From contig JAFRHL010000030.1 of NCBI GenBank assembly GCA_017433295.1, forward strand, positions 1 through 48,931: 48,931 nt of DNA. Direction: 5' to 3'. This DNA is from Eubacterium sp. (GTDB taxonomy: Bacteria; Bacillota; Clostridia; Lachnospirales; Lachnospiraceae). Both the position numbers and the translations under genes were made by a program. Below, one piece after another: positions 9,696-43,505 of the stretch. Within the stretch, counting starts at the first letter, position 1; each line of letters begins with the position of its first letter. A model generated the notes under the pieces. The model worked only from the letters and a program-made list of their open reading frames with translations, was not told the origin of the DNA and searched no databases.

Positions 9696-9709
9696 CAGTC
9701 TTCCTCCTT

Positions 9710-12598
9710 TCATCTGGCACTCTGTATAATGTTCGATCCAAAATCTGAAGCATGAAGGGGGCGGGAGAAATAATATCCCTGCACCAGGGAGCAGCCCAGA
9801 GCCTTTAACCGTCTCATCTGCTCTTCGGTCTCCACTCCTTCCGCGACGACAGGAATCTTCAGGTTTTTAGCGATGTCAATGATCAGCGCCACCAGCTGGA
9901 CGTCTTTTTCATTATGTTCGATATTCTGTATGAATGCCCGGTCCATTTTCAGGACGTCAATGGGCATGGAAGACAACATATTGAGGGAGGAATATCCGGT
10001 GCCGAAATCGTCCATTTCCACCTCATAACCTTTCCTTCGAAGGCCTTCTACGACCCGGATGACTTCGTCTGCATTTTCGGTATAGGCGGACTCGGTCATC
10101 TCCAGTCTCAGGGCATCGTGATCCAGACCGTAGTAGGAAAGGATGCCGTCAAGTGTGCTCTCCAGCATGGGGTCGAACACATCCACTCTGGAAACATTGA
10201 CAGAGACAGGAATGGTTATCCCGTACTGTTCCCTCCAGCGGACGATCTGCCTGGCGGCTTCTTCCCATACATACTTATCTACCAGGCCGATCTGGCCGTT
10301 TCTTTCAAACAGGGGGATGAAATCGTCCGGGGGAATCATGCCAAGCTCGGGATGACACCAGCGGACAAGAGCTTCCGCGCTTACCATCCTGGGCGGATCA
10401 GCCTGAATATCATATTTGGGCTGGTAGTGGACTTCAAATTCATAGGAATCCAGAGCCTGCCGCAGGTCATTTAAAAGACGCTGATTATACATCTCCTGGT
10501 CACGGACCTTCTCGTCAAATATGATCAGATGCTCCTTATAATGTCCCCGGGCCATGTTGCAGGCTGTCCGGGCCCTGTCAAAAAGTTGTACCGGTTCAAG
10601 CCCCGCCTGCCAGGGCATGACACCCATTCGGAGGCGGATACTGGCGTTGGGAGCGAGACCATCCAGCCTGGCCTGCAGGCGGTCAAAAATGACCGGATAG
10701 TCTTCTCTGTGCCGGCAGTAAATATCAAACCGGTCTGCACCGAATCTTCCGGCGATCCCTCCGGCTTCCTCTGAGATCTCCCGGATCTCGGCTCCCAGGA
10801 TACGCAGTACCTGATCACCGAATTCCCGTCCGTTCAGCGCATTCACGGAATGGAACTGTTCAATATTGAGTACGATGGCATCCATGGGAGTGTCCGGGTG
10901 GTCGTGGTACATACGATCGGCATATTCAAGGAAGTAATCCCTGTTGTACAGGCCGGTCAGCTCATCAATTTCCGTAGCGGAGATCAGTTTTTTTGCTTTT
11001 TTCTCCGACCGCATGCTCTGGATCATCAGGGTGAGGATCAACAGAAGCACGATGCCGACTCCTGCCATGACTACGGTCAGGTTATCTACGATAAAATCAC
11101 TGATGGTGAGTCTGGCATCTTCTGTGGTATAGTAAGTCAGGGCAGCATTTACAGTGGAATTGGGAACCTGGCCGACAACCTTTGACAGGATGGAATACAG
11201 TTCCCTGTCCCCGTTGCCCACTGCAAAGGAGTAATCCAGTCCCACACCTGTGGTGATGGTGGTAAGATGATACTTCTTGCATAGTCTGGAAATATTATTA
11301 TAGCGGTAATTGCTGATCAGAACACAGTCTGCCAATCTGTCCGATACTGCTTTCAGGCAATCCTCGGTGGTGGGGTAATAGACCTTCTTCCATTCAGGGA
11401 AGTTATCAAGAAGAAACGAATCGTAATTGGGATTCCCCTCATTTACGGCCGCGATAATGTGCGCCTTGCTGGTAAATACCTTCTGGTCTGACTGGCGTAC
11501 CACCGCGTAGATTTCCGTATCCATCAGCGGCGACGTTATGATGACACCCATGCTTTCTCCATCGTAGCCGCTGAAATTGACAGGGAAGACGCAGTCCACC
11601 TCGCCTTTCTGCAAAGCGTCCATGGCAGAAACCACAGTGGGGAAGGCAGTCGCTTCAAAATCAAGCTTTGCATTTGCCAGACAGTCAGAGGCGTAGTCCA
11701 GATAATCCTTCATGACCCCGGTCAGCCGGCCGGTTTCTTTGTCCTCTGCGCAGAAGGCCAGATAGTTGTCCTGGTAGCCTACCCGGATCTTCCCGTGGGA
11801 GGATAGCCATTTTATCTCATCGTTAGTCAGAACAGTATTGGCCCCGGTTCTTTTAAAGAATTTCTCATACATCTGCAGGTTATAATACCGGTTTTCGTCC
11901 TGTATCATGCTGAGAGCTACATTCAGATCATTAAGAAGGTCAGGCCGGTTTTTGTTCACGGCGAAATAGAAATCGGAGGATCCGACCTTGAAAACGGGTA
12001 CAGCATGCACCGGATCCGTAAAGAAATCTACGGTAACATAGGCATCCAGTTTACCGCTTTCAAGCATTCCCAGGGATTCGTCTTCGGAGCATGTCATTTC
12101 AACCAGCTCCGGGCGGATCCCGTTATCCGCAGCCCATTCCCTGAAGTAGTTTTCCTGAATACTGTCCTTATTTACACCAACCTTTTTCCCGTTCAGGGAA
12201 GAAAAATCCATTGAGGAGATTTCCCGGTTCTCAGGGGCAATAAAGAGGTAGTATTCTTCCGTTCCCATGGCGAAGGATGGAAAGAACATCTTCTTTTCGC
12301 GCTCGGGCATATAGGAGACATCGCTCATCAGATCGATTTCGCCTCTTTCCAGCATTTTAAGGAGCTCCGGCCAGCTTCCATTTACATATTCATAGTTCCA
12401 GCCCGTATAGGCGGCAACCTTCAGCTGATACTCATAGGCATAGCCGGAACGCCGTCCTGTCTCATCTATGGTATTGAAGGTGGAGTCATACCAGCCCACC
12501 CGCACGGTCTTGCTCTTCTGTCTGGCTCCGCCACTGACCGGGATCAGGAGAAGAAAGGCCGGTATGAGGAGAAGCAGCAGTCTTATCATTTTTTTCAT
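9710..12598 (-). CDS. Tandem solute-binding GGDEF-EAL protein, probable c-di-GMP phosphodiesterase
   Basis: The 962-residue protein has a signal/anchor segment, two family-3 solute-binding domains in tandem (about 30-245 and 265-500), a membrane helix (about 508-530), a GGDEF domain (about 545-690) and an EAL domain (about 705-955). The GGDEF site is degenerate: RFGADRF replaces RYGGDEF, so it may bind GTP without cyclase activity. The EAL domain keeps EALVRW, VNVSR, EMTESAY, DDFGTGYSSL, VAEGVET and QGYYF, so it should hydrolyse c-di-GMP. The binding domains suggest sensing of amino acids or similar solutes outside the cell. It follows the PAS hybrid kinase by 25 bases and abuts the Cache-GGDEF gene. 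AAAGGA precedes the start. Confidence 0.88.
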   Translation of the reverse strand: MKKMIRLLLLLIPAFLLLIPVSGGARQKSKTVRVGWYDSTFNTIDETGRRSGYAYEYQLKVAAYTGWNYEYVNGSWPELLKMLERGEIDLMSDVSYMPEREKKMFFPSFAMGTEEYYLFIAPENREISSMDFSSLNGKKVGVNKDSIQENYFREWAADNGIRPELVEMTCSEDESLGMLESGKLDAYVTVDFFTDPVHAVPVFKVGSSDFYFAVNKNRPDLLNDLNVALSMIQDENRYYNLQMYEKFFKRTGANTVLTNDEIKWLSSHGKIRVGYQDNYLAFCAEDKETGRLTGVMKDYLDYASDCLANAKLDFEATAFPTVVSAMDALQKGEVDCVFPVNFSGYDGESMGVIITSPLMDTEIYAVVRQSDQKVFTSKAHIIAAVNEGNPNYDSFLLDNFPEWKKVYYPTTEDCLKAVSDRLADCVLISNYRYNNISRLCKKYHLTTITTGVGLDYSFAVGNGDRELYSILSKVVGQVPNSTVNAALTYYTTEDARLTISDFIVDNLTVVMAGVGIVLLLILTLMIQSMRSEKKAKKLISATEIDELTGLYNRDYFLEYADRMYHDHPDTPMDAIVLNIEQFHSVNALNGREFGDQVLRILGAEIREISEEAGGIAGRFGADRFDIYCRHREDYPVIFDRLQARLDGLAPNASIRLRMGVMPWQAGLEPVQLFDRARTACNMARGHYKEHLIIFDEKVRDQEMYNQRLLNDLRQALDSYEFEVHYQPKYDIQADPPRMVSAEALVRWCHPELGMIPPDDFIPLFERNGQIGLVDKYVWEEAARQIVRWREQYGITIPVSVNVSRVDVFDPMLESTLDGILSYYGLDHDALRLEMTESAYTENADEVIRVVEGLRRKGYEVEMDDFGTGYSSLNMLSSMPIDVLKMDRAFIQNIEHNEKDVQLVALIIDIAKNLKIPVVAEGVETEEQMRRLKALGCSLVQGYYFSRPLHASDFGSNIIQSAR

Positions 12599-12623: not shown

Positions 12624-15071
12624 TCAGACGCAGGCTGGATGCACATAGGTTTCCAGTACCCGGGCCAGGATGTCGACATCAATGGGCTTTGTAATATGCT
12701 CATTCATGCCGGCTTTTTTACATTTCAGCATGTCGTCAGTGAAGGCGTTGGCGGTCATGGCAACGATGGGGATCTCCTTCGCGTAGGACCGGTCCATGGC
12801 CCGGATGGCCTGTGTGGCTTCATAGCCGTTCATGTTGGGCATCTGCAGGTCCATAAAGATCATGGAATAATATCCGTCGGGGGAGGCGGCCAGTTTTTCT
12901 ACGGCCTCTTCGCCGTCCCTGGCCCAGTCCACATCAAGGCCGGTCATTTCCAGAAAGTCCATGGCGATCTCCGCATTGATCTCCTGGTCTTCAGTCAGCA
13001 GCACCCGGCAGCCTTCAAGCTCCAGCTCCTCCAGATTTTTTAAGGAGGCATCCAGATCCACATCTTCCGGATGGTTGTTGATAAGGGATTCGAAGAGGGC
13101 GGCAAGCTTGGTACGGAACAGGGGCTTGCTGATGAAGGCAGTGGCCCCCGCTTCTCTGGCCTCCTGTTCGATATCCGTCCAGTCGTAGGCGGAGAAGATG
13201 ATGATAGGAACATCCTCTCCCACCAGCTTACGGATCTGTCTTGTGGTTTCCACACCGCCCTGATCCGGCAGCTTCCAGTCTATGATAATGGTAAAAAAGT
13301 CCCTTCCCTGTTCCAGTCGTGCTTTTACCCGGTCCACGGCTGCCTTTCCTGAGAGGACCCATTCACTGTTCATTCCCATTTCACCTATGATCTCGCAGGT
13401 GGATTCGCAGCAGACGGGGTCGTCATCTGCAATCAGGACACGCAGATCGACAAACCGGCTGTAATCAATGTCTGCCGTATTCTGAAGCTTCAAATAAATA
13501 TTGACCGTGAATTTGGAGCCCTCTCCGTAAACACTTTCCACGGTGACATCTCCGCCCATCATGCGGACGATGTTCCGGGTAATGGCCATTCCGAGCCCGG
13601 TACCCTGGATTCCGGCGGTCTGCCTGTCATTAGCCCGGGAAAAAGGTTCAAAGAGACGTTTCTGAAACTCTTCGGTCATACCGTAGCCGTTGTCCTCAAA
13701 GACAAACTGGTAATGGCCAAAGCCCTGAGTCCTGGTGGGAGTCTCCCGGACACTTAAGGAAATCTTTCCCCCGTCGGGAGTGTACTTGATGGCATTGCTC
13801 ATGATATTGATGAAAACCTGCTCGATCCGCCGGCTGTCACCGATAACATATTCGTGTTCCACTCCCTCGATATGTATCCGGAAGGAGTGGCCTTTGGCCT
13901 GCAGCTGGGGCCTGGTCATGGTCAGCATTTTATCAATGAGCTCCGCCAGACAGAACTCTTCTTCCTGCAGCTCAACCTTTCCCGACTCGATCTTATTCAT
14001 ATCCAGAACCTCGTTGATCAGGGAAAGAAGGTGGCTGGAGGATTCCGTGATCTTCCGCAGGCAGTCTGCCACCCGTTCCCTGTCATCAAGATGGTTGGCG
14101 GCTATGGTGGTCATACCGATGATTCCGTTCATGGGGGTGCGCATGTCATGACTCATGCTGGAGAGGAAGTCGCTCTTGGCCTTGTTGGAGGCGTTGGCGG
14201 CATCAATAGCTTCCCGGAGGGCCTGCTGGATCTGCTGTTCCTTTCGGACCTCGTCGTCCACGTCTTTAAAACCGGCTACGATGCCGGTTTTTCCATCCGG
14301 CAGGTCCAGCCTGGCAAACTCCAGCCGGTAATATCGGATCCCGTGTTCAAAGACCCGGCGGAAGGGAACAGAATAAATCAGAGTGTTCTCTGTATTTTTT
14401 ATGATTTTTTCAGGTGATACTGCTTCCAGGAAGCCCGCACGGTCTTCCTCCAGTACGAGGTTGGAATAAAAGGCGAAAGCGTCAGAGAACCGTGTGATCT
14501 TCACGGCGGTCTGGGCGGGCATGAGATGGACCATTTCCTCATCGATCCGGTAAAGCTCAAACCGCTGAGTCTCAAGGTCATTGATGAGCCAGACCGAGTC
14601 ATATACCCTGGTAAGAGCTTCTATAACGGCAGACCGGAGAGCTTTGTCAGATTCCGCCTGCCGGTGTTTATCAGTGATGTCCGAGATAAATACATAGTAA
14701 AGACCGCTGTAGACTTCAGACTCCACATAATGACCGTAATCATCGATCCAGCGGGTCTCTCCGTCCCTGCGAATAATCCGGTATTCAACATAATCAAGGT
14801 CAGAACGGTTCTCATCGATCTGCTCCTTTATTGAAGAGGAAACCCGGTCATAATCCTCCGGATGGATCATTCCCCGGAAAGTAAAGCCGGAAAATGCCCT
14901 GAATTCTTCCAGATCCTCGCAGCCGAAAATATGGCAGACGGCCTTATTGGCATACAGCAATTCCTCGCTCTCATCAGCCTTGTAAATAAAGAAGCCGCCC
15001 GGCATATGCTCGCCAAACTGTTCGATGATGGAAAGACTCTGTTCGTTAAAAATAAAATGCCTGCTGAACAT
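12624..15071 (-). CDS. PAS hybrid histidine kinase with two receiver domains
   Basis: This 815-residue protein lacks clear membrane helices. It has a PAS domain (about 15-140), a second PAS-like region (about 150-275), a HisKA domain with phospho-acceptor His in SMSHDMRTPMNGIIG (about 295-365), an HATPase domain (N, G1 and G2 boxes seen, for example DNGYGM and GTGLGMAI; about 405-530), and two receivers. Receiver 1 (about 548-670) has phospho-Asp in IIIDWKLP; receiver 2 (about 690-805) has it in IFMDLQMP. There is no Hpt domain or separate output regulator nearby, so the phosphorelay partner lies elsewhere. It is the first gene of an operon with two c-di-GMP proteins and a ferredoxin, expressed from a good promoter divergent from folC. 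Confidence 0.9.
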   Translation of the reverse strand: MFSRHFIFNEQSLSIIEQFGEHMPGGFFIYKADESEELLYANKAVCHIFGCEDLEEFRAFSGFTFRGMIHPEDYDRVSSSIKEQIDENRSDLDYVEYRIIRRDGETRWIDDYGHYVESEVYSGLYYVFISDITDKHRQAESDKALRSAVIEALTRVYDSVWLINDLETQRFELYRIDEEMVHLMPAQTAVKITRFSDAFAFYSNLVLEEDRAGFLEAVSPEKIIKNTENTLIYSVPFRRVFEHGIRYYRLEFARLDLPDGKTGIVAGFKDVDDEVRKEQQIQQALREAIDAANASNKAKSDFLSSMSHDMRTPMNGIIGMTTIAANHLDDRERVADCLRKITESSSHLLSLINEVLDMNKIESGKVELQEEEFCLAELIDKMLTMTRPQLQAKGHSFRIHIEGVEHEYVIGDSRRIEQVFINIMSNAIKYTPDGGKISLSVRETPTRTQGFGHYQFVFEDNGYGMTEEFQKRLFEPFSRANDRQTAGIQGTGLGMAITRNIVRMMGGDVTVESVYGEGSKFTVNIYLKLQNTADIDYSRFVDLRVLIADDDPVCCESTCEIIGEMGMNSEWVLSGKAAVDRVKARLEQGRDFFTIIIDWKLPDQGGVETTRQIRKLVGEDVPIIIFSAYDWTDIEQEAREAGATAFISKPLFRTKLAALFESLINNHPEDVDLDASLKNLEELELEGCRVLLTEDQEINAEIAMDFLEMTGLDVDWARDGEEAVEKLAASPDGYYSMIFMDLQMPNMNGYEATQAIRAMDRSYAKEIPIVAMTANAFTDDMLKCKKAGMNEHITKPIDVDILARVLETYVHPACV

Positions 15072-21510: not shown

Positions 21511-21573
21511 ATAAAAGTAGAATCAGCACAGATGCGGATTCGATGCTCACCACATTCGCAAAGGAGAGAAGTG

Positions 21574-24381
21574 ATGATGGATTTTAATCTGCCATGGCAA
21601 TCCCAGGGAGATGAATTAGACCGATATAAAGAAGAAATCAATAAGGAGAACCGTATCGCCATCCGGATGCTGGCCTTTTACGGGGTGCCGCTCAGCGCTG
21701 TAATTACCATTTCCCACCTGATTTTTTTAGGGATGGGAGCGGCTGTCTGGTTCAGCATTTTCATGATGATGTATTATGCGGCCTTTCTTTTATTTGAGCA
21801 TTTTCTGCTGCCGGAGGACTATCCTTATTCTACCACTCTCCTGTATCTGATGGAGACGCCGGTGATGCTGATGGCTGTCCTTCTGGGTACAGTGCTGGAT
21901 CCCCACCGGGCTGCAGTGACGGTACTGCTTTTTCTGATCGCCCTGCCTGCCTTTATCATGGACAGGCCTGACCGCCTTCTGATATTTACAGGGCTCTGGG
22001 CTGTTTTATTTCTTGTAATGTGCTTTATCTGCAAGGATCCTTCGGTTCGTATCCTGGATGCCCTGCACATCTTTGAGTTTTTTGTTACTTCCGTTGCCCT
22101 GGTCAATGTGATCCTGCGGGTGCGTCTGGAGTCCCTGCACCATCTGATTCAGGGAGAATATCATCTGGAGCATGAGCAGCAGACAGACTGTCTGAACAGG
22201 TATGCCCTGGCCAGCCGGGCGGTCTCCTATGTGGATCAGGAAGTGGTGGTACTGCTGGCGGATATGGACCGGTTTACTCTCTATAATGACTTTTACGGAC
22301 ACGAAGCAGGGCAGAAGATCATAGATTATTTCGCGGCCGCCCTGATCAACCATTTTGGCAGGGATAATATCTACCATTATAATGGAGATGAGTTTCTCTG
22401 TGTGCTGAAAGGACAGCAGGAAGAGGACTACACCAGAAAGATTGCCCTGTGCCGGGAGGAGCTGGACAACTTTATTCTGGAAGAGAAAAAGCTGCCGCTG
22501 ACCTGTGCTTTCGGATATGTCACCGGAAGGCCGGCTGATGTAAAGGAATTTCACGAGATGATCCAGCTGGCGGATATTTATGCCCACAAAGCTAAAACCA
22601 GAGGACTGGGCGGTTATCTGGGAGATGTCTTCAGCCAGGAGCATCTTCGGTCCGGTATTGTGGAAAGCAATCTGATGACCCATGCGAAATCCTATGAGAT
22701 CAATCAGCTTACCGGGCTTCCGGGCATGAGTTATTTTGTCAGCCGTTCCGACGCCCTTCTCAATAATGTGGCTGACCAGTCCCGCCATCCGGTGGTGGGC
22801 TACTTTAAACTGGTCAATATGAGAGACTATAATGATGCATTCGGCTATGGCCAGGGGGATGAACTGATCGTGGAGACCAGCCATCTCCTGCTTAAGTATT
22901 TTTCAGACCGGTACATCTGCCACATTACGGCTGCCAAGTTCGGTATCCTGTGCTATGAAGAAGAGATAAGCGATGCCCTGCGTAATATTAATGAGACATT
23001 GAGAGATTATAAGGAAGGATTTCCTGTGCGGGGACAGGCCGGCTTTGCCCGTTTTACGGGTACCGAAAGTGTTATCTCCCTGATGGACCAGGCCAAGATC
23101 GCCCAGGAGACTTTGCCCCGGGGCGGTGAGCTGGCCTATTGCTTTTACGATCAGGTGCTTGATACAGAACTGCATTTTCGCCAGTACATCATCAGTCATG
23201 TGGACGAGGCCATCCGGTCCGGCTGGCTTCAGGTATATTATCAGCCCATTGTCCGCTCTGTAACAGGCCATGTATGTAACGAAGAAGCCTTATCCCGGTG
23301 GATCGACCCCCAGTACGGATTCCTGTCACCCGGCCGCTTTATTCCCACCCTGGAAGAAAACGGGCTCATGTACAAGGTGAACCTTCATGTAGTTCGTCAG
23401 GTGCTTAATGACTTCGAACGCAGGAAGGAGAACGGCGTACCCCTGGTTCCTGTATCTGTGAATCTGTCCCGGAAGGATTTTGAGAAATGTGACATGGTTC
23501 AGGAGATCGCAGACCTGGTGGATGCTTCCGGTTACTCCCGGGATATGATTAAGATCGAGATCACAGAATCCGCCTTTATCAAAAACCAGGAACTTTTAAG
23601 GCGGGAAGTAGAAAGGTTCAGGACTGCGGGCTTTGATGTGTGGATGGATGACTTCGGCAGTGAGTATTCTACCCTGAACCTGCTGCAGGACCTGGATTTT
23701 GACCTTATTAAGATCGATATGCAGTTCATGGAGAACTTCTCCATCACCAGTAAGAATTACATCATTATTTCAGATATTATCCATATGGCCAGGCGGATGG
23801 GGATCACCACCCTGATCGAAGGCGTGGAAACCAGGGATCAGTTCAGGCTTCTCCAGTCCATGGGCTGTGAAAAAATACAGGGATTCCTGTTTAATAAGCC
23901 CAACCCCTTTGACTACATTCTGGAGAGGGTAAGGACCAGGACCGGCCTTCGCTTTGAAGACCCCAAAGTAGGCCCCTATTATGCTGCCATCGGCGGCATC
24001 GACTTAAATGAGCCTTTATCCTACGGGAAGATGCAGTCCGAGTCCGGGATGGAAAAGGAGATGGCTGCCGGCGTACTGGAGCTGAGCCAGCAAGCTATCC
24101 TCTGTTTAAGAAGTACGGACCGGTTTGTGAAGATACTTGAGGAGGAGGGGGCCATTGACAGGGAGGGCGCCTTGTCCCAGTTCAGTATTAAAGAGGAGAA
24201 ACTTCCGGAAGCCTTCCTTTCTGCCGCTGTCCGCAGCGTGGAATCTTCGGGGTGGATCAATTTCAACTGTAAGCTTGGGGCGGAAGGTGATATGTCCGTC
24301 TATATGTGCAAAGTGGCAAATGTTACCGGCGGAGACGCGGTGGCTATCCTGACGGTACTTCTGGAGAGCCATGGGAAATGA
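21574..24381 (+). CDS. Membrane GGDEF-GGDEF-EAL protein, probable c-di-GMP phosphodiesterase
   Basis: The 935-residue protein has about five or six membrane helices (about 30-175), a first GGDEF domain (about 195-330) with NGDEF in place of GGDEF, a second GGDEF-like domain (about 350-505) fully degenerate at the active site (TAAKF), an EAL domain (about 520-770) and a C-terminal region of about 150 residues I cannot assign. The EAL motifs EEALSRW, VNLSR, EITESAF, DDFGSEYSTL, IEGVET and IQGFLF are all kept, so phosphodiesterase activity is likely. The first GGDEF may bind GTP or retain weak activity. AAAGGAGAG precedes ATG 21574. The stop codon overlaps or closely precedes the sugar kinase start region, so the two are probably cotranscribed. 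Confidence 0.87.
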   Translation: MMDFNLPWQSQGDELDRYKEEINKENRIAIRMLAFYGVPLSAVITISHLIFLGMGAAVWFSIFMMMYYAAFLLFEHFLLPEDYPYSTTLLYLMETPVMLMAVLLGTVLDPHRAAVTVLLFLIALPAFIMDRPDRLLIFTGLWAVLFLVMCFICKDPSVRILDALHIFEFFVTSVALVNVILRVRLESLHHLIQGEYHLEHEQQTDCLNRYALASRAVSYVDQEVVVLLADMDRFTLYNDFYGHEAGQKIIDYFAAALINHFGRDNIYHYNGDEFLCVLKGQQEEDYTRKIALCREELDNFILEEKKLPLTCAFGYVTGRPADVKEFHEMIQLADIYAHKAKTRGLGGYLGDVFSQEHLRSGIVESNLMTHAKSYEINQLTGLPGMSYFVSRSDALLNNVADQSRHPVVGYFKLVNMRDYNDAFGYGQGDELIVETSHLLLKYFSDRYICHITAAKFGILCYEEEISDALRNINETLRDYKEGFPVRGQAGFARFTGTESVISLMDQAKIAQETLPRGGELAYCFYDQVLDTELHFRQYIISHVDEAIRSGWLQVYYQPIVRSVTGHVCNEEALSRWIDPQYGFLSPGRFIPTLEENGLMYKVNLHVVRQVLNDFERRKENGVPLVPVSVNLSRKDFEKCDMVQEIADLVDASGYSRDMIKIEITESAFIKNQELLRREVERFRTAGFDVWMDDFGSEYSTLNLLQDLDFDLIKIDMQFMENFSITSKNYIIISDIIHMARRMGITTLIEGVETRDQFRLLQSMGCEKIQGFLFNKPNPFDYILERVRTRTGLRFEDPKVGPYYAAIGGIDLNEPLSYGKMQSESGMEKEMAAGVLELSQQAILCLRSTDRFVKILEEEGAIDREGALSQFSIKEEKLPEAFLSAAVRSVESSGWINFNCKLGAEGDMSVYMCKVANVTGGDAVAILTVLLESHGK

Positions 24382-26660: not shown

Positions 26661-29336
26661 TCAAAGGACCTTTTTGTCCCGGTACAAAAGACCGAAGGTA
26701 CCCGGTCCGCAGTAGGAGGAGATGGCCGGGGAAGCCTTCTGGAAAATGATCTTTTCAAAATCGCAGTATTTCTTTATCTCAGACCGGATTGCTTCAAGCT
26801 CCTTTGGCTGCATTCCCACATAGGTGACAAAAAGGATCCTCTGGTCAATGGAGTTTCTGTGTTTGAGTTCGGAAGCAATGTACTTCTTCCAGTAGGAACG
26901 CCGGGAGCCCACCAGGAGTCTCCCGATGCGGATCCTGCCTTCTTTCAGTTTCAATACAGGATGTATCAGCAGGGCTTTTGTGAGTCCTGCTGTTTTCTTT
27001 TTTACCAGTCCGGATCTTGCCATATATTCCAGATCTTCCACAATGAATCCGGAATGGATATGGTTTTTGACAAGCTCCAGCTGCTCTATGATCCTGGCAG
27101 GGCCAAGGCCCTCCTCCAGCAGCTGACAGGCCTTTAGTACCAGAAGACCCTGCCCGCTGGAAAGATGGCCGGAATCAATAACCTGGACATTCTGGAAGTT
27201 ACCGGCAGCCTCTGTTGCCGGCTGATATCCGCTGTCCTTTATTTGACCGGAAATAGAGATGTGGATAACATTTCCTGCCCGCAGCAGCTGAGAGGCAAAA
27301 AAGCTTTCATAGGCTGAGGTATCCGGAGCAATCGTCTTTACGCTGCTGCCTGTTTTCTGCATATAAGAGACGAGGCCGGCAGATTCGATTTCCACCCCGT
27401 CAAGAAACAGCCCCTCTTCGGTGGCTACGGTATGAGGGATAATACCTATATGATACTTTTTGATCAGGTATCCCGGAAGATCGGCGATGCTGTCGGTCGT
27501 TATGACAGTCTCATGAAGCTGCTGCTGCTCCTTCAGCCATGCCATGCTGTCTTCAGCGATGGACCTGTCGGAATCGACGAGATGAAGAAGCTCTTCGGGC
27601 AGAAGACGAATACATTCCTCCTCCAGCTCCTTTCCGCTGCAGGGCTTCACAAGATAACCGTCAAAGCCTTCTCTGGCATAAAGCCGGCGGCTTTCGCCCT
27701 CACTGTTGGCGGTAAGGGCCACCACCCGGGCATCCCTGCTGAGTCCCCCTGCCTGGGATCTCAGATGATGCAGGCATTCTATTCCGTCCATTTCGGGCAT
27801 CATGTGATCCATAAAGATAAGATGATAGCGGATATTGAGAGTTTTCTTAAGGGCCTCCTTTCCACTGGCAGCAGTATCTATGCGCATACGGGTATCCCGA
27901 AGCAGTTTTTCCACCACCATACGGTTGGGGGCATTATCATCCACGATCAGCAGACTTGCTTCCGGCGCTTCAAAGCTGTGCCTGTAAGGCTGGCGGGTAA
28001 GTTCGCTGCGGCTGCTTTTGAAGGGATTTGTCCCGATACTCTCGCTGCCGGCAATTTTCTGGGGCAGACGGATGGTGAAGACGCTGCCCCGGGTATAGAC
28101 GCTGTCTACGGTGATGCTGCCATGCATCAGGTCCACAAGCTGTCTGACAATGGAGAGTCCCAGACCTGTTCCTTCAATCTGACGGTTTTTCTTTTCGTCT
28201 ACCCGGCGGAAGGCAGTAAAGAGATGGGGCATAAATTCTTTTTTTATGCCGATTCCCGTATCGCTTACCGTGAATGTGATGATTTTATCTGCAGAATCTT
28301 CAGATTCCCCGCTGACCGTTAAAGTGACAGAGCCCTCGGAGGTATATTTGATGGCATTGTTTAATATGTTGATGAGGATCTGTTTGATCCGGATTTCATC
28401 CCCGTATAAACGGGCGGGCAATTCCGGATCCACCTCCACATGCAGGTCAAGCCCCTTTTCTCTGGCGGGAAGCCAGACCATGCCAATGATATCCGAAAGC
28501 ATATCTCCCAGCTTGTACTCTGCTTCCGAAAGCTCCATTTTGCCGGATTCCAGTTTGGACATATCCAGAATATCATTGACCAGGTGGAGGAGCAACTTGC
28601 CGGCTGCCCGGACCTGGGCAGCGTCCTGGGCCACTTCATCAGAAATGTTTTCCCTGAGGATCATTTCATTGAGTCCCACAATGGTGTTGACCGGGGTACG
28701 GATCTCATGGCTCATACTGGAAAAGAACCGGTTCTGGGCCATGTTCAGGTTTGCGATCTCTTCCTGCTGTTTTTTAAGGATTTCCCTCTCCTGTCCGGCC
28801 ATATGAAGCTGGAAGAGGAACATGCTGGTGGTCATGATCCCGGTTATGATCAGCGAGGAGAGAGAATCAACATAAGCTGAATCAGTGGAGTAGGGCACCA
28901 CCAGTCCGGGATAATAATAAGACAAGGCATAGCAGATGATGGTTACGACAATATCGGAAATCAGAAGAAAGATTCTAAGACGGCCCCGGACTGTGAGAGT
29001 GATGAAAACCATGGCGAGAATACACCAGTTGGGTGCTCCGGCATGGATGCCTCCGTTATAAAAGAAGGCAAAGGGAAGCATCAGGAAAACCAGAAAAATT
29101 CCGCTGGCCCCTGCTCCCAGCTGTATCTTCCCCGTGCGCAGGGTGGAAATGCAGGTGGGTATAAAAAGCAGGTCACAGACCAGGAAAAATACTGTCCGCT
29201 GAAATTGAAAATCCACAATGGCCGCAATGACAAGCCAGACAAAGAGAGTGATGATACTGAGGGCAGAGTGCAGGCGGTAGCGTCGTTCAAATACATCCCG
29301 GGAGGGATCGTTCAGTTTTTTAAGCCAGTTTTTCAT
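26661..29336 (-). CDS. Hybrid histidine kinase fused to a DegV fatty-acid-binding domain
   Basis: The 891-residue protein has about six membrane helices (1-190), a coiled segment, HisKA (about 205-270; His in SMSHEIRTPVNTIVG), HATPase (about 315-430; DTGIGI, GTGLGLSIV), a receiver (about 462-580; phospho-Asp in IFMDHMMPEMDG) and a C-terminal DegV domain (about 610-891). DegV features seen are TDSIADLP at the start, IHISISGQIKDSGYQ, VIDSGHLSSGQGLLVL and FIVEDLEYMARSGLV. Stand-alone DegV/FakB proteins bind a fatty acid and present it to the kinase FakA. Here the domain is placed after the receiver, so lipid binding may modulate signalling. The start overlaps the previous gene by 4 bases (ATGA) with AAAGGAGG upstream. 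There is no Hpt domain; the upstream kinase carries one. Confidence 0.88.
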   Translation of the reverse strand: MKNWLKKLNDPSRDVFERRYRLHSALSIITLFVWLVIAAIVDFQFQRTVFFLVCDLLFIPTCISTLRTGKIQLGAGASGIFLVFLMLPFAFFYNGGIHAGAPNWCILAMVFITLTVRGRLRIFLLISDIVVTIICYALSYYYPGLVVPYSTDSAYVDSLSSLIITGIMTTSMFLFQLHMAGQEREILKKQQEEIANLNMAQNRFFSSMSHEIRTPVNTIVGLNEMILRENISDEVAQDAAQVRAAGKLLLHLVNDILDMSKLESGKMELSEAEYKLGDMLSDIIGMVWLPAREKGLDLHVEVDPELPARLYGDEIRIKQILINILNNAIKYTSEGSVTLTVSGESEDSADKIITFTVSDTGIGIKKEFMPHLFTAFRRVDEKKNRQIEGTGLGLSIVRQLVDLMHGSITVDSVYTRGSVFTIRLPQKIAGSESIGTNPFKSSRSELTRQPYRHSFEAPEASLLIVDDNAPNRMVVEKLLRDTRMRIDTAASGKEALKKTLNIRYHLIFMDHMMPEMDGIECLHHLRSQAGGLSRDARVVALTANSEGESRRLYAREGFDGYLVKPCSGKELEEECIRLLPEELLHLVDSDRSIAEDSMAWLKEQQQLHETVITTDSIADLPGYLIKKYHIGIIPHTVATEEGLFLDGVEIESAGLVSYMQKTGSSVKTIAPDTSAYESFFASQLLRAGNVIHISISGQIKDSGYQPATEAAGNFQNVQVIDSGHLSSGQGLLVLKACQLLEEGLGPARIIEQLELVKNHIHSGFIVEDLEYMARSGLVKKKTAGLTKALLIHPVLKLKEGRIRIGRLLVGSRRSYWKKYIASELKHRNSIDQRILFVTYVGMQPKELEAIRSEIKKYCDFEKIIFQKASPAISSYCGPGTFGLLYRDKKVL

Positions 29337-31903
29337 TCTGCGCCTCCTTTCGGGAAAAACTCCAGAAGCTCGTCAATTTCGGGCGCGAACTCCAGAACTT
29401 CATCATCAATCTGCATCCGGATCTGTTCGACCAGCTTCCTGTAATCCCGGATCATTTCCCCATGATGTTTCACAATATAGGAAGAGTCACCCTTTTTCGC
29501 CGCCGTCTCCAGAGCCTGGGTGATCTCTGAGAGGGGGACAGCCCCGATCAGGCGGGAGCTGCTTTTCAGGGCGTGAACATATATGGCATAATTATCCAGA
29601 TCCATGGAAGAGAGACATTGGTCCAGGCGTTCCTGCTTTGAAACTGCCTCCGAAACATATTGCTCAAGCAGGGTATCATACAGCTCTTTATCTCCCTGGC
29701 AATGGCCAAGGCCCATCTGTAAGTCAAGCTCTGCCTGAACCGGTGGATTCATGGAATCCGGCGGAACCGGCAGCGGCTTTTCTTCCGGTTGACGTGGATC
29801 GGTGAAAATCGCCTCAGCAGGCTCTGTAAAAGAAATCGTCTCAGCAGGCTCCGCAAAGGAAATGGATGAAGGGGGCAGGACCCGCTTCAATGTCCGCTCC
29901 AGCTCCGGTATTTCAATCGGTTTGCTGATAAAGCCGTCAAAGCCCTCCGCCAGCATCATTTCCTTTGCTGTGCTTAAGGCATTTGCCGTCAGGGCGATAA
30001 TGGGTATGTTTTTCCTGCCGCACTCGGTTTCCTGCCGGATCCGTTTCATGGTCTCCACCCCGTCCATTTCCGGCATCATATGATCCATGAAGATCAGGTC
30101 AAAGGTCTGGTCCCGGCACATGCGGACAGCCTCTTTCCCGGAATCGGCGGTACTGATAAAGATACCGTATTTCCGGAGGATACCGGAAGCAACATTTAAG
30201 TTCATGGGTTCATCATCCACGATGAGGGCATGAACATTGTGACAGACCAGTTTTCTTTCACTGCCGGGGATGAAATCCAGGTCGGAATTAAGGATGGCGG
30301 CAACAGGGAAGCAGTAAAAGGGTTTGGGCATGATAAGAATGTGGGAGGAAGGCGGGAGAGGGAAGTTTTCCCTGCCAACCAGGATCACATTCATCTGGCC
30401 GGAGAGGGAGTCCAGCAGAGCGGAAGAGGACAGATATTCTTCCTCGCCGATAAAGAGGTGGGTGATCTTAACCTTTTTAAGCAGTGCCAGGAGGTCATGC
30501 TCATTATCGACACGATGCATGGGCGTGCCAAGTCCCTTTACAATATTCAGGATCATATCGTTATAGAATTCCCGGACATAGGGATTGGAGTATTTGCGGA
30601 TATTGAGGTATCCTCCCAGCACGATACTTTCGGGACTGGCAACGGACATGCAGAATTCTTCGTCCGTCACCTGCTGGGGGATACTGACATGTACCGTGGT
30701 ACCGCTGCCGGGCTCACTTTCCACCATGAGAAAGCCGCCCAGGGCATGGGTAAATCCTGACACGATGGAAAAACCGAGTCCAAGTCCGCCAATGCGCATG
30801 GATTTGCCGGTATCTCCCTGGTAAAAACGGGTGGATACCAGGTCAACTTCTTCTGGGGTCATGCCGATTCCCGTATCCTTTACTTCAATACAGAGATTGA
30901 TGCCATAGGTCTGTTTTATGGCAGAGAAATGGACATATACGCCGCCTTCCCGGGTGTATTTTATGCCGTTGCTGATAAGATGGAAGAGGATCTTCTGCAG
31001 CTTGGCCGTATCTGTAACCAGACCGGCAGGAATATCGGCATCAACATCCACCACCAGCTCAAGCTCTTCCGGGAGCCCGGGACGGAGGACAGTCATCAAA
31101 TCGTTCAGAAGAGAAGACAGGCTGTAGCTTTCGGAATTGACCACAAGACGGTCAGTTTCCAGTTCGGAATAATCCAGGATGTCACTGATCTGATCAGCCA
31201 TCCGGCGGCCTGCGTTGCGCACCGTATACAGCTCCGGACCGAATTCATGATCCGGGTGCTGAAAGAGAAGGGTATCCGTCGTTCCAAGAATGGCATTGAC
31301 CGGTGTACGGAGTTCATGGGAAAGATTGGCCAGGAACTGATTCATCCTTCTGGTGGCCTTGTTCAGATTCCGGATCTGAATATCATTTTCCTCAAAGAGC
31401 TGGGCCCAGAGCTTTATGATAAAACGGGCCAGCCAGCAGGCCAGTGTCATCAGAAAGAAGTGCAGGATAAGCCTGGAGATCAGGAGGCTGTCCCAGACTG
31501 TATTTAAACGGATCATAAATATAACGTCATAGAGCAGGGTGAAATAATAGGTAATCTGGCAGAAGGTCACCAAAGCCCCTTCGCCAACTACCGTAAAGAT
31601 CAGGATCATGATAATCATGAGGGTAGACATGTCAAAGATACTGGTGAGATGGATCCCGTAAAAAAAGAAGGTCCCCATCATCAGGAAAGTGTAGATCCAG
31701 ACCCGCTGGTGTTCAGTCATTTTCTGTCCGGTATGCAAATACCAGCAGACGGCGACGGCGGAGAGGATCAGGGGGATGGCCCAGAGCTCCCAGGACATGA
31801 GAAGAGTCTCAAAAACAAGCCCCAGGGCCAGGAGAGTGTAGCTGACCAGGATTAGCATATGTGAAGATTCAAATAGTCCGGTGCGGTGATTGTCCTGCTT
31901 CAT
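29333..31903 (-). CDS. Hybrid histidine kinase with pseudo-receiver, receiver and Hpt domains
   Basis: The 856-residue protein has about six membrane helices (1-175), HisKA (about 190-255; His in NLSHELRTPVNAILG), HATPase (about 300-415; DTGIGM), a receiver-like region lacking the phospho-Asp (about 435-550; ends in MPKPF), a true receiver (about 555-675; Asp in IFMDHMMPEMDG), a Pro/Glu-rich linker with a 9-residue repeat, and an Hpt domain (about 740-835; His in YVHALKSSSRL). It can therefore run a full His-Asp-His relay toward a soluble receiver; the HD-GYP protein encoded just upstream has such a receiver. GGGAGG lies about 13 bases before the start, a little far. It overlaps the kinase-DegV gene by 4 bases. 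Confidence 0.9.
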   Translation of the reverse strand: MKQDNHRTGLFESSHMLILVSYTLLALGLVFETLLMSWELWAIPLILSAVAVCWYLHTGQKMTEHQRVWIYTFLMMGTFFFYGIHLTSIFDMSTLMIIMILIFTVVGEGALVTFCQITYYFTLLYDVIFMIRLNTVWDSLLISRLILHFFLMTLACWLARFIIKLWAQLFEENDIQIRNLNKATRRMNQFLANLSHELRTPVNAILGTTDTLLFQHPDHEFGPELYTVRNAGRRMADQISDILDYSELETDRLVVNSESYSLSSLLNDLMTVLRPGLPEELELVVDVDADIPAGLVTDTAKLQKILFHLISNGIKYTREGGVYVHFSAIKQTYGINLCIEVKDTGIGMTPEEVDLVSTRFYQGDTGKSMRIGGLGLGFSIVSGFTHALGGFLMVESEPGSGTTVHVSIPQQVTDEEFCMSVASPESIVLGGYLNIRKYSNPYVREFYNDMILNIVKGLGTPMHRVDNEHDLLALLKKVKITHLFIGEEEYLSSSALLDSLSGQMNVILVGRENFPLPPSSHILIMPKPFYCFPVAAILNSDLDFIPGSERKLVCHNVHALIVDDEPMNLNVASGILRKYGIFISTADSGKEAVRMCRDQTFDLIFMDHMMPEMDGVETMKRIRQETECGRKNIPIIALTANALSTAKEMMLAEGFDGFISKPIEIPELERTLKRVLPPSSISFAEPAETISFTEPAEAIFTDPRQPEEKPLPVPPDSMNPPVQAELDLQMGLGHCQGDKELYDTLLEQYVSEAVSKQERLDQCLSSMDLDNYAIYVHALKSSSRLIGAVPLSEITQALETAAKKGDSSYIVKHHGEMIRDYRKLVEQIRMQIDDEVLEFAPEIDELLEFFPKGGAE
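29810..29863. repeat. 27-bp (9-codon) tandem repeat in the kinase linker
   Basis: Two in-frame units (29837-29863 and 29810-29836) encode ISFAEPAET and ISFTEPAEA in the linker between receiver and Hpt domains of the hybrid kinase. Copy number changes would alter linker length without breaking the frame. Confidence 0.8.
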
Positions 31904-31922: not shown

Positions 31923-32939
31923 TTAATTTTCGTGCATGGTATATGCGGTATCTTCATCGATCATCTCCAGCATGATGTCCGCAAAGGCCGGGTCAAACTG
32001 TCTTCCCCTGCCTTCCTCGATCTCCCTGCGGACTATATCCTGGGCAAGGATCTCCCGGTAGCTTCTGTGGCTGGTCATGGCATCATAGGCATCCGCCACG
32101 GCAATAATGCGGGCTTCCTCCGGGATATTCTCTCCGGCAAGTCCGTCCGGATAGCCCTTTCCGTCATAACGTTCATGATGCCAGTGGGCTCCGGTGGCCA
32201 GGCCGGGCATTTCCCGGATATTGGATAAAATGCTGTGGCCCCTGTCCGGATGGCCCTTGATCAGGGCAAATTCTTCCTCGGTCAGGCGGCCGGGTTTATT
32301 GATGACGGCGTCCGGTATACCGATCTTACCCACATCATGGAGGATACCCATCATATAGAGATAGCTGCACCGGGCCTCGTCATATCCGTATCTCCGGGCA
32401 ATTTCCCGGGAATATTCGGCGACCCTTCTGGAATGCCCGTGGGTATACGTGTCCTTGGCGTCAATGGCTTCCGCCAGGGTTTCTACAATATGAAGAGAAA
32501 GCCTTTCGATTGCTTCGGTTTTCTTTCTGACTTCCCTGGTGAGATTCCTCTGCAGGCGGACCAGGTCAATGGTATGTCTGACCCGCAGCACCAGGACTTC
32601 CGGGATAAAAGGCTTTTTGATGAAATCCATGGCACCCAGCTGCAGGCCCCTGGCTTCAGTTTCCGCCTCGTCATCGGCGGTCAGGAAAATGACCGGAATA
32701 TCCTTTCCGTTTTTTAACCTTTTCAGCCGTGTTATGGTTTCAAAACCGTCCATCTCCGGCATCCTGATATCCAGAAGGATCAGGTCAGGGGACGGATCCG
32801 GCTCCTGACGGCTGATGTGGTCAAGCAGGGCCTGGCCGGACTTAAGTCCGGTGACCCTCATACCGTTTTTGCTGAGGATATGTCCCGCCATTTTCAGATT
32901 CGTAATATCATCATCTACTACAAGTACCCAGTTTGTCAT
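31923..32939 (-). CDS. Response regulator with HD-GYP c-di-GMP phosphodiesterase domain
   Basis: The 338-residue protein has a receiver domain (about 1-120; acidic pair DD9-10, phospho-Asp57 in LILLDIRMP) and an HD-GYP domain (about 145-325). The metal and catalytic residues are present: HGHSRR, HDVGKIG at 201, H230, HWHHE and GKGYP at 261. HD-GYP enzymes cleave c-di-GMP fully to GMP, so phosphorylation of the receiver would be expected to switch c-di-GMP breakdown. It follows the rlmD-type gene by 18 bases and precedes the Hpt-bearing hybrid kinase by 19 bases, which makes that kinase its likely phosphodonor. AAAGGG lies 8 bases before the ATG. Confidence 0.92.
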   Translation of the reverse strand: MTNWVLVVDDDITNLKMAGHILSKNGMRVTGLKSGQALLDHISRQEPDPSPDLILLDIRMPEMDGFETITRLKRLKNGKDIPVIFLTADDEAETEARGLQLGAMDFIKKPFIPEVLVLRVRHTIDLVRLQRNLTREVRKKTEAIERLSLHIVETLAEAIDAKDTYTHGHSRRVAEYSREIARRYGYDEARCSYLYMMGILHDVGKIGIPDAVINKPGRLTEEEFALIKGHPDRGHSILSNIREMPGLATGAHWHHERYDGKGYPDGLAGENIPEEARIIAVADAYDAMTSHRSYREILAQDIVRREIEEGRGRQFDPAFADIMLEMIDEDTAYTMHEN

Positions 32940-41357: not shown

Positions 41358-43505
41358 ATGAGATACGGGATACCGGAGTTGTTTCCAGAAAAAACAGCAT
41401 CCTCTGAAGAAATCATTCATCGTTTAAATCATACATTTCCTGAAGAGAGGTTTGAGGCGAATTCTGTTACCGGACTTCTCGAAGAAAAGGAGTATATCAG
41501 GGTGGCGGAGAAGCTGCTGACTTTTATTCATTCACCCTGGATATTGATATCTATAGATCTGGAAAAGTTTAAATTATTTAATGAGTGGTATGGCTGGCAG
41601 AATGGAACCAAAGTCCTCTCCAGTGTCGGCAGGACCCTTGACATTGAAGCAAAGAGGGCGGGCGGGATCGCCGGTTATATGGGCAATGATGATTTCCTGC
41701 TCTTTGCGCCGGAGGATAAGGTAAAGGTTAAGGAGCTCTACCGCAGCATCCACGAGATCATGGGGCAGTACGGTGTATCCGTTGCTTTTCAGCCATCCTT
41801 CGGAATCAGCCGTGTGGAGAAAGCGTCTGAAGGATTGTCCATCCGCACCCTCATCGACCAGGCAGCCCTGTCCTGTAAAAACGCCCAGACGGATTTCAGG
41901 GACAGAATACTGTATTTTGATTCCCATATGGTGGAGGAGACAGAGAAGGAATATCGTTTCCTCTCAGAATTCCGCCGTGCCCTCCGCAGCCGGCAGATTA
42001 CCTTTTACCTGCAGCCCCAGTGCCGGGCTTCCAACAGCAGTATTATAGGGGCGGAAGCTCTTGCCCGCTGGCAGAAAGAGGATGGAAGCTTCCTGTCTCC
42101 GGCGGTCTTTGTACCTATGCTGGAGAAGACAGGTTTTATTACAGATCTGGATAAATATATCTGGGATTCCGTGGGGAAATGGATCCATGACTGGAGGGAA
42201 AGAGGCGGTCCTTTTCTTCCTGTATCTGTAAATGTCTCACAGATCGACATATTCACCATCGATGTACCCGCATTTTTTAAAGACCTGGTAAAACATTATG
42301 ATATCCCCATCAATTCCATCAAGATTGAGATCACGGAGTCGGCTCTCGCCGAGAATCAGGAGAAGGTCCTCTCTGTGGTAAAAGAATTGAGAGATGCCGG
42401 ATTCCTTGTCATGATGGATGATTTCGGAAGCGGCTATTCCTCTTTGAATATGCTCTATAAGATTGATGTGGATATAATAAAAATCGACGCATTTTTCCTG
42501 CATTTTGAACAGGAACGCGAAGAAAAGGGAATTCATATCCTGGAGTCCATCATTAATATGACCCGAACCATGGGTCTGCCCATAATTGTTGAGGGAGTAG
42601 AGACAAAAGAACAGGTGGAATTCCTCCGGACCCTGGGCTGCCGTTATATGCAGGGCTATTATTTCTATAAACCAATGCCGGTCCGGGACTTTGAAGCACT
42701 GATAACCACAGAAGATGCGGTGGACTTCAGCGGCTTTACCTTTAAAGCCAATGAGCAGTTCAGAGTCCGGGAATTTCTTGATCAGACAGTTTACAGTGAC
42801 GCCATGCTTAATAATATCCTGGGACCTGTGGCCATATATTCCTGGAATGGGAAGGACATAGATATCATCCGGTTCAATGAGCAGTTCTACCAGATGGTTA
42901 ATGTACCGGATTTTCAGCAGCGGCTCATTGAAATCCAGCAGTATATGCCCGAAGAGGACAGACAGAACCTCACGGATACCCTGGAACAGGCCTATAAGGA
43001 TCATATGAACGGCGCGACAGCGGTACTTACATTTTTCAGGGGGACCGGGGACAGCCTTCGTATCCTGATGCACTTTTATTATCTCAGGGATAAACAGGGA
43101 TCCAGACTCTATTATGGGTCTGCCAGAGATGTTACCCAGATCACACTGCTTCAGAAAAATATAGAAATGATCACCAGGCAGTTTTCAGAATGTCTGATCT
43201 TCCAGATAGCAAACGACGAAGGCTGCCACTTTGAAGTTGTCGCCCAGGGGATAGAGGAACTGGATCTGTCAAAAAAAGAACTGGAAAACGAACTGAATTC
43301 CGGTATCTTCTATACCCGCATCGTACCGGAACAGCAGAAAATGTTTAAGGAGCAATGCCTCGGGGCTCTGGAAGGCCTTGACTTTTCTTCCTATATCGCC
43401 CTTTACAATAAAAAAGGAGAGAGATTGTCCCTTTACATAGAATCAGATTGTGTGGAAGACAGCATAAGCAATGTAGCCTGCATCATCAAAATATCAAGCC
43501 CGTAA
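41358..43505 (+). CDS. Cytoplasmic GGDEF-EAL protein with C-terminal PAS-like region
   Basis: The 715-residue protein has no membrane helix. A degenerate GGDEF domain (about 45-170, site MGNDDF) is followed by an EAL domain (about 190-440) with EALARW, VNVSQ, EITESAL, DDFGSGYSSL, VEGVET and MQGYYF, all the expected catalytic motifs. The last 270 residues contain one or two PAS-like domains (about 470-715). It should act as a phosphodiesterase, with the degenerate GGDEF and PAS regions as possible control parts. Having the sensor-like domains at the C-terminus is the reverse of the common order. The ribosome binding site is a weak GGGTGGGG about 12 bases before the ATG. A terminator overlaps its stop codon. 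Confidence 0.86.
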   Translation: MRYGIPELFPEKTASSEEIIHRLNHTFPEERFEANSVTGLLEEKEYIRVAEKLLTFIHSPWILISIDLEKFKLFNEWYGWQNGTKVLSSVGRTLDIEAKRAGGIAGYMGNDDFLLFAPEDKVKVKELYRSIHEIMGQYGVSVAFQPSFGISRVEKASEGLSIRTLIDQAALSCKNAQTDFRDRILYFDSHMVEETEKEYRFLSEFRRALRSRQITFYLQPQCRASNSSIIGAEALARWQKEDGSFLSPAVFVPMLEKTGFITDLDKYIWDSVGKWIHDWRERGGPFLPVSVNVSQIDIFTIDVPAFFKDLVKHYDIPINSIKIEITESALAENQEKVLSVVKELRDAGFLVMMDDFGSGYSSLNMLYKIDVDIIKIDAFFLHFEQEREEKGIHILESIINMTRTMGLPIIVEGVETKEQVEFLRTLGCRYMQGYYFYKPMPVRDFEALITTEDAVDFSGFTFKANEQFRVREFLDQTVYSDAMLNNILGPVAIYSWNGKDIDIIRFNEQFYQMVNVPDFQQRLIEIQQYMPEEDRQNLTDTLEQAYKDHMNGATAVLTFFRGTGDSLRILMHFYYLRDKQGSRLYYGSARDVTQITLLQKNIEMITRQFSECLIFQIANDEGCHFEVVAQGIEELDLSKKELENELNSGIFYTRIVPEQQKMFKEQCLGALEGLDFSSYIALYNKKGERLSLYIESDCVEDSISNVACIIKISSP

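Follow-up and report, generated by a model that had tools for sequence, protein, structure and literature searches.

The closest described relatives of the system reported here are the FakB/DegV lipid carriers (S. aureus FakB1 and its relatives), the RpfC/RpfG circuit of Xanthomonas and the hybrid histidine kinases of the TorS/BarA type. In FakB1, according to two papers (PMC8892158, PMC9136124), Thr62, Ser95, Ser171 and His270 hold the carboxylate, R205 contacts both FakA and the membrane, and fatty-acid exchange can do without R173, which the Fak reaction requires; the first describes alternation between closed and open ligand-exchange states (PMC8892158), and in the second R173 is said to neutralise the acyl-phosphate (PMC9136124). 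RpfC/RpfG, as outlined in PMC3749722, perceives the fatty acid DSF and passes the signal from a sensor-HK-REC-Hpt kinase to a REC-HD-GYP phosphodiesterase encoded in the same operon. A 2022 review of c-di-GMP sensing (PMC8846402) states that lipids may be sensed by such networks and that the sensor domain ‘has yet to be identified’, adds that direct demonstrations of a stimulus together with its kinase are rare, and mentions elsewhere a PAS domain that binds DSF, so that a fatty-acid receptor as such has precedent. The word DegV is absent from the main text of that review.

The window, a 48,931-nucleotide stretch of an Eubacterium sp. genome (Lachnospiraceae), encodes on its minus strand an 891-residue hybrid histidine kinase (26661..29336; open reading frame list and Pfam) in which a membrane region of five hydrophobic segments (residues 25-147, 28896..29264, from hydropathy) is followed by HisKA (residues 200-265, 28542..28739), HATPase_c (residues 312-427, 28056..28403), a receiver domain (Response_reg, residues 463-573, 27618..27950) and a DegV domain (residues 611-885, 26682..27506), the first three by Pfam and the last by Pfam, NCBIfam and matches to solved structures. 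The earlier note on this DNA had placed DegV after the HisKA, HATPase and receiver domains, and Pfam bears this out: past residue 610, PF02645 (DegV) matches with 149.7 bits (cut-off 27, E 1.4e-43) over positions 3-277 of its 280-position profile. The 891-residue protein also reaches 167.6 bits against TIGR00762 of NCBIfam (cut-off 99.7), and thus lies within the DegV family by curated cut-offs along the profile. Several DegV proteins as well as FakB1, FakB2 and FakB3 are among the solved structures that match the domain by sequence. The remainder of the protein is a hybrid histidine kinase, the HisKA His being present in 109 of 110 full-length relatives, the ATP-binding motif in 108 and the receiver Asp in 106. 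For the membrane region no family scored above cut-off; there were weak matches to MASE7, MASE11 and DUF6057, the last of these in 7 of 14 members with a best E of 0.005.

Upstream of this gene and overlapping it by 4 bp lies that of a partner hybrid kinase of 856 residues (29333..31903, minus strand), which has a membrane region and, by Pfam, HisKA, HATPase_c, REC and Hpt domains, the Hpt domain occupying residues 745-806 (29486..29671, minus strand); the stretch between HATPase_c and REC that has no Pfam match we infer to be a pseudo-receiver. Comparison of the membrane regions of the two kinases gave no clear kinship (hhalign probability 15%). A 338-residue REC-HD-GYP response regulator (31923..32939, minus strand, Pfam) is likely the output of the relay, acting as a c-di-GMP phosphodiesterase. 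Both neighbours are as the earlier note described them, an Hpt kinase and an HD-GYP effector. Partner and regulator together share the HK-REC-Hpt plus REC-HD-GYP architecture of RpfC/RpfG within one cluster, which by this architecture is the closest known circuit. There are two kinases here and one in Xanthomonas, one of the two carries DegV, and the description of RpfC includes no such domain; a Pfam scan of 16 window proteins gave no crotonase-like DSF synthase (RpfF). TorS/BarA-type kinases share the HisKA-HATPase-REC(-Hpt) core and give the top NCBIfam scores of both window kinases, yet these scores fall far below the cut-offs of those models, and the present pair differs from them in that one kinase terminates in DegV and the two have a single Hpt between them. 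The window as a whole is rich in c-di-GMP and signalling genes (Pfam), among them those for a dCache-HAMP-GGDEF protein (8031-9713), a solute-binding-GGDEF-EAL protein (9710-12598), a hybrid kinase that has PAS and two receivers (12624-15071) and a further two proteins of GGDEF-EAL type (21532-24381 and 41358-43505).

Among 24 genomes of the genus the fusion occurs only in the window's own; seven others have a match at E 1e-20, with DegV in frames of 283-312 aa, and one of these (G013) carries the separate kinase-type DegV of locus L195 described below. When 348 genomes from the family were sampled, DegV matched in 55 at E up to 1e-45, and the 72 matching places divide into 65 in frames of at least 700 aa, four in frames of 400-699 aa and three in shorter ones. 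Wider samples were searched at thresholds that would miss more divergent fusions. The order sample (392 genomes, E up to 1e-60) added a single further family, with long frames in two genomes; the class sample (391 genomes, E up to 1e-65) added another family, with long frames in three genomes that share a genus; and the phylum sample (299 genomes, E up to 1e-65) gave them only in the window's family. A wider genome scan, for which six close alignment rows served as query, the 24-row alignment being too variable, returned 211 relatives from 373 stretches; the best 80 of these, which were analysed further, carry Lachnospiraceae, Ruminococcus, Oscillospiraceae, Clostridiales and similar labels and are mostly metagenome-assembled. 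The same six-row query found no relative among viral contigs. A scan of genome contigs with the single domain as query also gave no relative. On plasmids 18 records match, and the eight listed are all below 30% identity, with DegV family annotation or none. Absence of the fusion from the other 23 genus genomes searched could mean that assembly had wrongly joined a kinase gene to a free degV gene, an explanation to which we give practically no weight: the same domain order recurs in independent assemblies of many genera, metagenome-assembled genomes included, and the overlap with the partner gene is conserved. The 65 long frames of the family sample, spread over many genomes, rule out assembly error as the source of the fusion, which is real.

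Taking the window, 40 other loci and 79 of the best 80 relatives, and removing two duplicates, we obtained 118 distinct loci from related Clostridia, with frames called by a simple script and counts that overstate independence, the rows being related by descent; L165 was left out, having no DegV by our own domain model. Kinase, REC and DegV stand together in 114 of the 118; of the other four, two are DegV-Hpt proteins, one is a kinase-DegV protein that lacks REC and one is truncated at a contig end. In 96 loci the gene immediately upstream, on the same strand, encodes an intact partner kinase. The 22 that lack it comprise 12 contig-end cuts, eight broken or split frames, L125, in which an opposite-strand frame was called where the partner is expected, and L081, in which no partner was seen. 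Every one of the 96 pairs has exactly one Hpt, carried by the partner in 85 and behind DegV in 11, and never by both or neither. Nine of the 11 rows with Hpt behind DegV form one clade and the remaining two, placed apart, are half-length, so that one or two transfers are enough; on the best tree the Hpt location changes twice, one change being forced. With perhaps no more than one or two moves of the Hpt behind them, the 96 pairs do not count as independent observations. The gene junctions of the pair measure -1 to -4 bp in 49 of the 96. Of the 348 genomes in the family sample, 47 contain the partner membrane region, and DegV matches in 46 of those 47 (Fisher p 4e-47, without correction for kinship of the genomes), and nine of the 55 DegV-positive genomes have no partner membrane region at the threshold used. 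Narrow patterns recognised the receiver Asp and the Hpt His of the partner in only 67 of 95 each. The broken or split partner or DegV kinase frames (L055, L065, L080, L102, L103, L130, L134, L154) may be assembly errors or real splits. L081 (7290-9878) encodes a DegV protein that has HATPase, gives no Pfam match to REC or HisKA and is fused to a membrane region of the partner type.

The gene before the pair encodes an enzyme that makes or breaks c-di-GMP (GGDEF, HD-GYP or EAL) in 63 of the 96 loci, namely REC-GGDEF-REC-HD-GYP (23), REC-HD-GYP (22), REC-GGDEF-REC (8), REC-GGDEF (6), other HD-GYP proteins (3) and EAL (1), according to neighbour models that were built from these same loci and confirmed on representatives by Pfam. 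By the same models the other 33 have REC alone (5), no model match (14), another hybrid kinase (2) or a partner-like fragment (1), or else no same-strand neighbour (9) or a contig end (2). A link between lipid state and c-di-GMP breakdown, as the earlier note had it, stands in part: the linkage to c-di-GMP enzymes holds, and breakdown fits the window, but by our own models the regulator contains GGDEF, and hence a synthesis domain, in 37 of the 96, and HD-GYP without GGDEF in 25. The commonest gene before the pair joins synthesis and breakdown domains in one regulator, for example at L092 (1225-3600). In L156 an OmpR-type regulator follows the DegV kinase (Pfam), so c-di-GMP need not be the sole output.

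A tree of 60 of the 118 kinase-type DegV domains (the window and 59 random draws), 35 free DegV proteins and FakB1 places all 60 in one clade with 100/100 support, and a single free DegV falls inside it, that of L195 (row L007). L195, from the window's genus, encodes this DegV as a separate protein of 282 aa between two kinases, and in L201 a 287-aa DegV stands between an Hpt-bearing kinase and a REC-GGDEF protein. DegV thus occurs as kinase-DegV, as kinase-DegV-Hpt, as DegV-Hpt without a kinase (L079, L083) and as a stand-alone protein beside or between kinases (L195, L201); L079 is divided into three genes, for a REC-REC-HD-GYP protein, a kinase without Hpt and a DegV-Hpt protein without a kinase. 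The single clade and the arrangements in L195, L201 and L079 indicate that DegV accompanies these kinases in cis or in trans. Three high-scoring free DegV proteins (L199, L200, L204) had no kinase neighbours by our own models. Mean pairwise identity among 15 kinases is 0.65 for the kinase core, 0.60 for REC, 0.42 for DegV, 0.25 for the membrane region and 0.24 for the linker before DegV. The kinase-type domains also bear a signature of their own, with Asn at FakB1 position 270 in 115 of 118 and Gly after position 205 in all 118. Being conserved and so marked, the domain is probably under selection rather than decaying. L195 encodes a second DegV (13520-14383, 232 bits to PF02645) slightly downstream of its separate kinase-type DegV.

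Like the FakB/DegV proteins, the kinase-type domains have the DegV fold at full length by sequence; unlike them they are fused to, or encoded with, kinases, and most lack the residues on which FakB function depends. We compared them, in FakB1 numbering and with the window's residues placed by alignment, with 35 distinct free DegV rows drawn from 40 loci, a set that leans to the canonical form, its members being those nearest to the window or the relatives' best PF02645 matches. R173, R205 and H270 occur together in none of the 118 kinase-type domains and in 32 of the 35 free ones, the commonest kinase-type triplet being Gln-Phe-Asn (68 of 118). Position 173 is Arg in 17 and Lys in three of the 118 and Arg or Lys in all 35 free DegV; position 205 is Arg in one of the 118 and Arg or Lys in 33 of the 35; position 270 is His in none of the 118 and in 33 of the 35. 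The window has Leu777, Val809 and Tyr875 at these positions, the last departing even from the Asn of its own clade. The carboxylate network (Thr62, Ser95, Ser171, His270) is only partly kept in the window: position 62 is Thr or Ser in 98 of the 118 and in all 35 free DegV (Thr668 in the window), Ser95 is found in 30 of the 118 and all 35 (the window's position being ambiguous through a one-residue insertion), and Ser171, retained as Ser775, occurs in 28 of the 118 and is not discriminating, as only two of the 35 free proteins have it. In the helix that enters the membrane, position 177 is hydrophobic in 10 of the 118 and 26 of the 35, and position 180 in 16 of the 118 and 31 of the 35, the window having Lys and Gly there. 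Positions 168, 174, 181 and 185 remain hydrophobic. Three relatives tested against the NCBIfam FakB1 model scored 55-77 bits (cut-off 350). The window's genome also encodes a FakA-type protein (650 bits to the YloV model, cut-off 396; 563 to the FakA equivalog model, below its cut-off of 975) and four free DegV proteins, which likely serve normal fatty-acid activation. Since the FakB triad is never complete in them, the kinase-type domains are probably not FakA substrates, and any ligand would be a different one or held otherwise. The earlier note's suggestion that signalling is read or tuned by a bound fatty acid survives in so far as the kinase system constantly includes DegV and conserves it; with the catalytic and docking residues of FakB mostly gone and the carboxylate network partly kept, a fatty acid would be one candidate ligand and not the default.

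The exclusive placement of Hpt, the overlapping genes, the neighbouring enzymes and the fact that partner and DegV occur in the same genomes point to one relay that would set c-di-GMP, and we lean, if only slightly, towards a two-kinase relay regulated by a ligand-holding DegV. The two membrane kinases made from overlapping genes would share one Hpt as a single signalling unit, and phosphate would flow from the Hpt to the receiver of the c-di-GMP enzyme, in the window the REC-HD-GYP phosphodiesterase. DegV, at the end of the second kinase, may be a former lipid carrier of the FakB type turned into a cytoplasmic regulatory domain, with a cavity that most likely still binds a small hydrophobic ligand, probably one without a free carboxylate. 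The loaded and empty forms would then alter flow through the relay differently, for which closed and open states like those of FakB1 offer a ready switch. We also entertain, as a tentative extension short of an even chance, a single capture of DegV by Clostridia of the gut and rumen, in which it would serve c-di-GMP signalling as a lipid sensor domain. The system would then be the Gram-positive counterpart of fatty-acid-to-HD-GYP signalling, and the residues for FakA docking and for the charged head group would have been replaced (in most members R173 by Gln and H270 by Asn), leaving a sensor that FakA cannot consume and that reads a lipid whose head is uncharged. Both gut and rumen are rich in fatty acids.

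The change from charged to amide residues would suit a carboxylate-free lipid, but the same data allow loss of ligand binding: with the carboxylate network and the membrane-docking face mostly gone, binding itself may be lost. DegV might then be a scaffold to which the partner kinase, Hpt or regulator docks, or which aids kinase dimerisation, its conserved part being a protein-contact surface. Such a role would suit the loss of FakB residues for carboxylate binding, docking and the membrane face, the replacement of the membrane-inserting hydrophobics of FakB1 at 177 and 180 by polar or basic residues, and the proteins of L079 and L083, where DegV is fused directly to Hpt; we nonetheless think it rather doubtful, as a bare scaffold need keep neither the full-length fold nor Thr or Ser at the carboxylate contact of position 62. 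A domain that still works as FakB, loading membrane fatty acid for phosphorylation by FakA and thereby coupling fatty-acid activation to the kinase, is improbable despite its family membership and the FakA-type protein of the genome, given the incomplete triad, the low FakB1 model scores and the four free DegV proteins available to FakA. Small acyl phosphates are able to phosphorylate receivers, and DegV directly follows the receiver in most of the 118 loci; both count towards a DegV that carries an acyl-phosphate and donates its phosphate directly to the adjoining receiver, so feeding lipid state into the relay. That reading is more improbable still, as the Arg that would neutralise an acyl-phosphate is rarely kept at 173 and L081 has DegV without a receiver.

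In the literature searched, with subscription journals mostly outside its coverage, we found no paper describing a kinase-DegV fusion, and the available parts of PMC3146951, PMC12688256 and PMC10146087 describe none. The kinase-type DegV family is a candidate lipid sensor, and its soluble domain, about 290 residues long, could be purified and analysed for bound lipid. If the preferred relay is correct, it would show a metabolic carrier turned regulator through loss of the residues that link it to its enzyme. The family also offers a natural example of Hpt relocation from one kinase of a relay to the other. Among the neighbour clusters examined there was no recurring lipid gene; the largest cluster consists of generic ABC ATPases and the next of a T2SSE-type ATPase, assigned by a Pfam run on another member of the cluster (L065). 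In 11 loci (L120, L121, L131, L132, L137, L140, L141, L143, L148, L151 and L152) the next gene after the DegV kinase, on the opposite strand, is the one for this ATPase, which as a guess may be PilT-like.
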